From Siniperca chuatsi (taxonomy: Eukaryota; Chordata; Actinopteri; Centrarchiformes; Sinipercidae), in the NCBI RefSeq assembly GCF_020085105.1, contig NC_058053.1:13440388-13504387 (forward strand): a DNA stretch of 64,000 bases, in the 5' to 3' direction. This document shows positions 24,801-27,800 of the stretch, one piece after another (within the stretch, counting starts at the first letter, position 1; the number at the start of each line of letters is the position of its first letter). Made by a program: the position numbers and the translations under genes. The notes under the pieces are model-generated. The model saw only the letters and a program-made list of their open reading frames with translations, searched no databases and was not told the origin of the DNA.

Positions 24801-27800
24801 CCAAATGTATAACCAAAAGGATACAGCTACAGTATATTTATTTATTTATAAAGTATAACATAAATGACAGCTGTAGAGAGAAATGTAAAGGTGAAAGAAA
24901 CAAAAAGACAACAACAGCCCTGTGTATAGATGCCTGCCTCTCCTTCATTTCCAGGTGGCTTCAACCTCTGGGCTCTTGTCAGCCAGCTCTGACATCTCCG
25001 AGAGGACAGAGGGGAAGTGGACCATGACTAAATATTATTCAAAACCTCCCTTTGGTTGCCCCCATTTCTGTTTCATAAGGTGCCAGGAGTGTGACCACAC
25101 AGAGGTGTAACTCAGGCCAGCAGAAACCATCTAAAACAGCCATGGCAGACAATTTCACAGCTGATGGCATAGTCCTCTCGGTAGAGAATGATGGAGAGGA
25201 ATGAATATGTGCTACTTTGTCAAAAACAGTAATAACTAACCCACATGGTCATTCCTACTCTGAAAAGATTAAATCTAGTTAAGCAATTTGTTTAAAAAGT
25301 ACACAGAGTTCAAAGCTGAAATCAACAGATGGAGCTATTTAGCATCTTTGATAACAAGGTACAGAAAACTAGCTATACTTGTAATGCATTCTGGGTAGTA
25401 TAGTACTGTACCTTTGACAGGCAGCTCCACAGTGCTGTTCATGTTACACAGGTGCCCATGGCAGCACTCCACAATCTGGTCTCTGGAAGGTGGGGTCTTG
25501 CAGGTCAATGTGCTCTGCTCATAGACCTTAAAGCAGCCTTTCTGGTACACTAAGGAGCCAGCGCTGACAGTCAGAGATGAGAAACACTGGTGCCCCATGC
25601 AGCGATTCCCAGTTGCACATGAGCTGCCCTCACAGACACACGAATGCTCCTCTTTGATCAGGGGCTTTACTTCCTCCTCTGCAAAAGATTCAGGAAGAAG
25701 ACATGGCTGCCAAATAAGTAAACTTTCGACAAGAGATGACTAAAGCTATTCCTGCATTACTATAAAAAAATATCATATAACGTTTTATGGTGTTTTAAAA
25801 ATAAAAATTAAAGTACATTTTTTTCATAAAATTAAATTTCTAATTATGAGACCTCATATCCAAAGCAGAACTTTTGCACAATCTTAGGTGGCATAAGGTC
25901 TACGGTGAACGGCAGCCAAGAAAAATGTGTACAATGTCTACAAAGTCACCTTTCCCTGGAGCTTGCACAGTGACGTTCATGTTACACAGATGGCCCTGGC
26001 AGCATTTGACAACATGGGCTGATGAGGGTGGCATAGCACAGGTGGCTCTGCCCTCCTCGTCATCCCTCAGGCAGCCCTTCTGTTGGACGGCCATCCCATC
26101 AATCATCTTCAGAGAGGAGAAACACTGCTGGCCTGCACAGCGATGCTCACACACGCCGCCCTCGCACACACACTCCTGGTCTCTGAGGACTGGTCTGCCA
26201 GCAGACAGTTCTACATCTGATAAGAGGAAATAGAGATATGGGGAAACCCATTAGAGCAATACCATTAGTATCCCATTAAATGAAAAGGCATTCACTCAGA
26301 TCAGAAAACATGTAGTTGAAAATGTATCTCTGTTGGCTGGCTGAGGACAAGCAAGTCAGTTTAAATGTATGAGTTCTCACAGAAATTTTCACATTTCCCT
26401 GTTTGAAATCTAACACCTGCTAATATAAAATCACTGATACCCGTGTTTTCCACATACATAATTTATTTAAGAGGCCCACCCAGACAGATTTCCTCCCAAC
26501 CTGACTTTTTATGTCTTTGTATGTATTATTTCATTCATTCAAAATTCTCAAAATTTAAACTAGGCCTTGACGATAATTGATTACTTTCAGCTGAATCATA
26601 TTGCAATGATATGGTGACATCATGTTATCATTTTACAAACATTTTATTGTTTAAATGAGTGATAATTTTGAATTGTAAAAGTTTCTCTTTTACACACACA
26701 TATGAAGAGTTGTGTCTGATGTACTACGGAACAGTGGAACAGTTTGTTCTTTATTCAGGTTCTTATTTGATTTTGCCTGTATTTGCCATATCATATTATA
26801 TATTAATGTAGGACAGATGCTACTGATTTTAACCACATCACCCAGTCCTAATGGAAATGTTGACTGATTAACAAGGCTACAGGAATGGTCCTTGGACAGT
26901 TGTGCAGATTTGTAAAGTTATTTCCCAAACTGGTGTTAGGCTTGTGAATATAGTTATTCTGCAGCCACCTCTGCAAGGGGTCAGCTATCACAAATATTCC
27001 CAACCTGTGGAAAATACTGAGACAATACAAAATATGGAAGAACATAAAGGATAGTAGAGGTAGTGGTAAAAGTACACATTCTTCATTCCTCTGTATTTTA
27101 AAAAGACGGAATGATGAACTTCACGTAAGGGACTTGCTCCACTGGTATCAATAATAAAAATCCAACAGAAGTTAAGGCAGGATATTTTTCACACAGTGTT
27201 ATGATGCAAACACCTCACCTTTCACCGGTGACTGAAAGGAGATGTTCATGTTACACAAATCCCCATAGCAGCACTCTACCACTAGCTCAGGAGTTGGTGG
27301 GCTTCTGCAGCGCAAGGACTCTTCCTCATTAGCCACAATGCAGCCCTTCTGAAGGACAGATGTCCCATTCAGTATGGAGAGGGAGGTGAAGCACTGCTGG
27401 CCGAAACACCTGTCTCTGCTGCTGCAGGACGCTCCGTCACACAAACATTCATAGTTTCTCACACTGATGTCACCTACAACAGAAAAAAACAATCATGGAA
27501 CAGGTCAGAATTCATCATTGATAATAGATTGAGGGCTGCTAAGGAGAATTTAATCTCTAATATGCTCCCAAATGATCAGTTTTTATCCATCTTTCCACTG
27601 CATTTCACCACCACTGCAGTTAAAATAACACAGAGAGACAGTAGATGAGAGGGAGACAGACTGAGAAGGGGTGGTGAAAGGAAAAAAATTGTGTGATTTT
27701 TTTGGTCTATGCATGTAAGAGACTTAAGGGGGACAGATAGAGACACAGCGGCTGAAAGATTGTGTGTATGTTAACTAGAGTAAAAGAGAATGGGGGGACA

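Follow-up and report, generated by a model that had tools for sequence, protein, structure and literature searches.

The window examined here, a stretch of 64,000 nucleotides of Siniperca chuatsi DNA, contains an acvr1 (ALK2) gene with three consecutive exons (A, B and C), each of which encodes a ligand-binding domain (LBD). We are largely confident that this gene is the teleost acvr1 with its known triplicated LBD exon, in which A, B and C are stacked in one receptor and A and B tune ligand capture. This three-domain form of ALK2 is genuine and has been conserved. The preliminary description of this DNA had suggested that selectable or stacked ectodomains on one kinase would be new; as passages of two papers make clear, the triple-LBD acvr1 is an already known finding, published in 2023 (PMC10501582) and followed through the ray-finned fishes in 2026 (PMC13187141). 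The architecture is relevant to FOP, a bone disease modelled in fish, since the extracellular parts of fish and human ALK2 are not alike.

The gene is encoded on the minus strand and comprises 11 coding exons between positions 15841 and 28125 (Table 1). The three ectodomain exons lie between one signal-peptide exon and one transmembrane (TM) exon, exactly as first described, with coordinates that match to the base. AG/GT was present at every border, from the signal-peptide donor at 28059 through A, B and C to the TM acceptor at 24006. The presence of ten cysteines in each copy and the absence of stops and frameshifts from the extra copies were likewise confirmed. Since A, B and C all enter and leave in phase 1, all seven of their combinations are in frame, and 7/7 were open to the final stop without an internal stop. 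The A+B+C form is a 682-residue receptor, and A, B or C alone gives an open receptor of 504–508 aa.

Table 1. Coding exons of acvr1, listed in the order of transcription (positions are those of the window).
Exon	Position	Strand	Details
Signal-peptide coding exon	28059..28125	-	start = first ATG (second ATG directly after); donor AAG|GTAAGT
Ectodomain exon A (membrane-distal LBD)	27219..27473	-	255 nt, 10 Cys, phase 1-1
Ectodomain exon B (middle LBD)	25950..26216	-	267 nt, 10 Cys, phase 1-1
Ectodomain exon C (membrane-proximal LBD)	25412..25678	-	267 nt, 10 Cys, phase 1-1
Transmembrane (TM) exon	23801..24006	-	
GS-box exon	20910..21009	-	
Kinase exon K1	19348..19494	-	
Kinase exon K2	18544..18819	-	
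Kinase exon K3	16992..17189	-	
Kinase exon K4	16096..16226	-	
Kinase exon K5	15841..15975	-	includes stop codon

The joined GS-kinase part scored 700.9 bits to ACVR1, 565.5 to ALK1 and 489.3 to TGFBR1. Further, 296/327 of its residues (90.5%) were identical to ACVR1, with a range of 89.7–90.5% for the kinase across six choices of limits, which bears out the earlier naming of the gene as acvr1 (ALK2). When the ectodomain copies were compared with solved structures using phmmer, ACVR1 (7yru and 9n4k, structures that we take to be human) came first for each of C (105.4 bits; best non-ACVR1 receptor, 25.0 bits), A (89.9 and 19.3 bits) and B (81.1 and 20.3 bits). Since all three match ACVR1 best, the most probable origin of the copies is in the ACVR1 lineage itself. 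Core identity to ACVR1 was 40/76 (53%) for A, 41/74 (55%) for B and 47/76 (61.8%) for C, so that C is the least changed of the three. The cysteine spacing of A and C is that of ACVR1, and one loop of B lacks two residues. All three copies scored above the cut-off of the Pfam family PF01064 (20.9 bits), with 40.1, 28.3 and 40.1 bits for A, B and C, respectively.

A neighbouring type I receptor gene on the minus strand (window 1526-4879, cut by the window end), which we call acvr1c-like from human synteny, encodes GS/kinase sequence of type I and has a single PF01064 exon (~4628-4867), compared with three in acvr1. When A, B, C and the acvr1c-like exon were used as tblastn queries over the 64-kb window, matches with E < 0.1 were found at those four places only; rows with E of 0.26 and above were left aside as chance. 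A profile search of the species' own genome (718.8 Mb, 65 contigs) with PF01064 returned seven matches among the best candidates scored; A, C and the acvr1c-like exon were among them, whereas B, which was separately above the cut-off, was absent. An Rfam scan of the window gave 0 matches at the gathering score. An AlphaFold model of exon A, made from a three-row alignment, had a pLDDT of 42.5 and was discarded.

Protein identity between the copies was 48.8% for A-B, 44.0% for A-C and 49.4% for B-C, and DNA identity was 59.3, 55.6 and 63.1%, respectively. An assembly duplication error is excluded by this divergence (44-49% at the protein and 56-63% at the DNA level). The dN/dS between the copies pointed to constraint: NG86 ratios were 0.24 for A-B and 0.28 for B-C, both rough because dS (1.84 and 1.35) is near saturation, and the synonymous sites of A-C were saturated and gave no ratio. 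In simulations without constraint that started from C and proceeded to 57% or to 76% nucleotide identity, ten cysteines and freedom from stops were retained in 0/5000 runs in either case. Thus, the intactness of A, B and C is beyond chance, and the copies are diverged and under constraint. That A and B are instead dead duplicates, unused in mRNA, is hardly credible: ten cysteines, open frames, splice sites and ACVR1-specific similarity have all been kept at 56-63% DNA identity, cysteines and frame survived in none of the neutral runs, and the cDNA of the medaka orthologue contains three LBDs (PMC10501582). The extra copies therefore appear to be used, as had been argued from their intact sequence, both from the constraint and from this cDNA.

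The medaka receptor provides the closest comparison. A cloned cDNA of medaka Acvr1 encodes three LBDs and yielded a tagged protein of 130 kDa on expression, and the residue equivalent to R206 is named R379, and in places R378H (Trumpp et al., 2023, PMC10501582). In S. chuatsi, the R206 equivalent is residue 379 of A+B+C (378 counted from the second Met), compared with 201, 205 and 205 in the one-copy forms and 290, 290 and 294 in the two-copy forms. Since only A+B+C gives the number of the medaka cDNA, one receptor with three stacked domains is the best reading, and by analogy the medaka cDNA speaks for stacking as the predominant form here too. Of the "selectable or stacked" ectodomains proposed earlier, it is the stacked arrangement that is documented in that cDNA. 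Further, medaka Acvr1 is 61.8% identical to the human protein in the LBD and 90.6% in the kinase (PMC10501582), compared with 61.8% (47/76) and 90.5% over the limits chosen here. The medaka paralogue Acvr1l lacks the triplication and has one LBD (PMC13187141), as does the acvr1l-like gene of the present genome (see below). Thus, the medaka gene is the same gene with three LBDs, and no difference was seen in the features compared, which are those given in the passages of the medaka paper cited here.

The distribution of the triplication among fishes has been described by Jatzlau et al. (2026, PMC13187141). The ACVR1 LBD is a single exon, as here, and its triplication is common to all Clupeocephala; the duplication is placed in early Osteoglossocephalai, and subsequently Clupeoidei lost LBDs and Cyprinoidei the gene itself. 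Other cases are listed for ACVR1L, BMPR2 and TGFBR2. In the passages of that paper used here, functional tests of separate LBDs concern BMPR2 and TGFBR2, not ACVR1.

A different use of the same exons would be the choice of one of A, B and C per transcript, by which ligand choice would be set by tissue on the same kinase. The model for this is Drosophila baboon, which likewise encodes a receptor of the TGF-beta family and has distinct ligand-binding domains on three tandem exons; these alternative fourth exons are mutually exclusive (PMC11195991), whereas the ACVR1 duplication is stacked in its documented form (PMC10501582). We consider such a choice unlikely in S. chuatsi. The shared phase and the open single-copy receptors are compatible with it, as are the unequal donor strengths (scored with a splice-site matrix), among which that of C (0.11) was the lowest of ten, compared with 7.14 for A and 4.27 for B. 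Moreover, there is mention of at least two transcripts in the medaka work (PMC10501582). However, the cloned medaka cDNA comprises three LBDs and yields the 130 kDa tagged product, and exclusivity is not enforced by the frame, since forms with two or three copies keep it as well. The B-C intron, 271 nt by coordinates, is long enough to splice, and in TGFBR2 single-LBD splice forms are marginal in chicken and horse (PMC13187141). Paired selector sequences for exclusive splicing were also sought and rejected: the region 25200-28200 holds a single inverted repeat of at least 16 nt (17 nt, 82%), which was taken as chance.

For the stacked receptor, the question arises of what each domain contributes. 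In the ALK2:BMP6 structure paper, the R206H receptor lost its response to activin A when Tyr74 was changed, with minimal effect on BMP6; the published tests cited from it used Ala, Val and Glu at this position, whereas the fish residues are Asn, Asp and Leu (PMC12415261). At the corresponding position C has Tyr, A has Asn, B has Asp and the acvr1l-like paralogue has Leu. Tyr74 is therefore retained only in C among the four ALK2-type ectodomains compared, and C should be the only one of them able to hold activin through this residue. A and B, from which Tyr74 is absent, would be unable to hold activin A through that contact. This split between C and A/B offers a simple prediction of what each ACVR1 domain binds, namely that C binds activin and BMP and that A and B are BMP-only or modulatory. 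As a feature read from the sequence, it is a small addition to the known three-domain receptor. Among the polar BMP6 contacts of human ALK2 (Ser41, Asn60 and an acid that we take to be Asp61), one is kept in each of A, B and C, and thus these contacts do not separate the copies. Exon A contains a second N-glycosylation sequon, NGT, from the position of human Asp61 (window 27367-27369 region); B, C and the compared ACVR1 stretch possess the C-terminal sequon only.

We propose that A, B and C are spliced in order to give the 682-residue receptor with one TM segment and kinase. C, which is membrane-proximal and the most conserved, would most likely do the signalling, and A and B, which have diverged and been retained by selection, would tune ligand capture, either by adding BMP-only capture or by damping signalling. 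That the splicing is the same in this species as in medaka, and that labour is divided among A, B and C, we infer. BMP-only capture by A and B would be in keeping with the BMP6 response of the medaka triple-LBD Acvr1. With that receptor, BMP6 produced an increase and activin A did not (PMC10501582).

As a variant of stacking, the outer domains A and B could be inhibitory or shielding and lower signalling, a possibility that we entertain tentatively. There are precedents for damping outer LBDs in Bmpr2a of the elephant-nose fish, the signalling of which rose after deletion of the outer and middle LBDs, and in zebrafish Tgfbr2a; older, fast-evolving outer LBDs have been tied to inhibition (PMC13187141), and A and B are diverged. 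In contrast, baseline reporter activity was highest with the triple-LBD Acvr1 of medaka, which also gave the BMP6 response, and neither human ACVR1 nor medaka Acvr1l was above the control (PMC10501582). The weak donor of C could allow C to be skipped. Since only C keeps Tyr74, C skipping would give a BMP-only receptor. Regulated splicing of A, B and C, in which the skipping of C converts a dual BMP/activin receptor into a BMP-only one that is free of activin's non-signalling block, seems to us quite improbable.

Related receptor genes of the genome were compared with the stacked acvr1. The acvr1l-like paralogue (L022, contig C15) possesses one ectodomain exon (3763-3981) in the 9801 bases fetched; rows of the lax ectodomain scan with E of 0.67 and above were left aside as chance. 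This ectodomain scored 50.9 bits to ACVR1 vs 16.6 to ALK1, and the GS box and first kinase exon of L022 were 94% and 96% identical, respectively, to those of acvr1 here. On the basis of these three parts we read L022 as acvr1l, although the evidence is mixed, because its second kinase exon (6687-6959) taken alone leans to ALK1 (138.4 bits vs 129.6 to ACVR1). A further gene, L020 (contig C10), was 73% identical to acvr1 in the GS box and 90% in the first kinase exon, and its second kinase exon (9051-9323) scored 144.8 bits to ACVR1 and 142.5 to ALK1. An ectodomain or TM match was not found in the 20 kb fetched for L020, which adjoins an ALK4/7-like gene (L023). L020 is probably acvrl1 beside acvr1b (L023), names that we assign by synteny, in which acvrl1 is next to acvr1b. 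The second kinase exons of L022 and L020, 76% and 78% identical to that of acvr1, respectively, lean opposite to the rest of their genes, the former to ALK1 and the latter to ACVR1.

Elsewhere in the window, a plus-strand frame at 55345-55704 resembles by eye the tail of a fish LINE reverse transcriptase, and two minus-strand reading frames (52715-53089 and 63558-63968) appear coiled-coil-like by eye. At E 0.01, no Pfam match was obtained for any of these three frames. From human synteny, the two coiled-coil-like frames perhaps belong to ccdc148.
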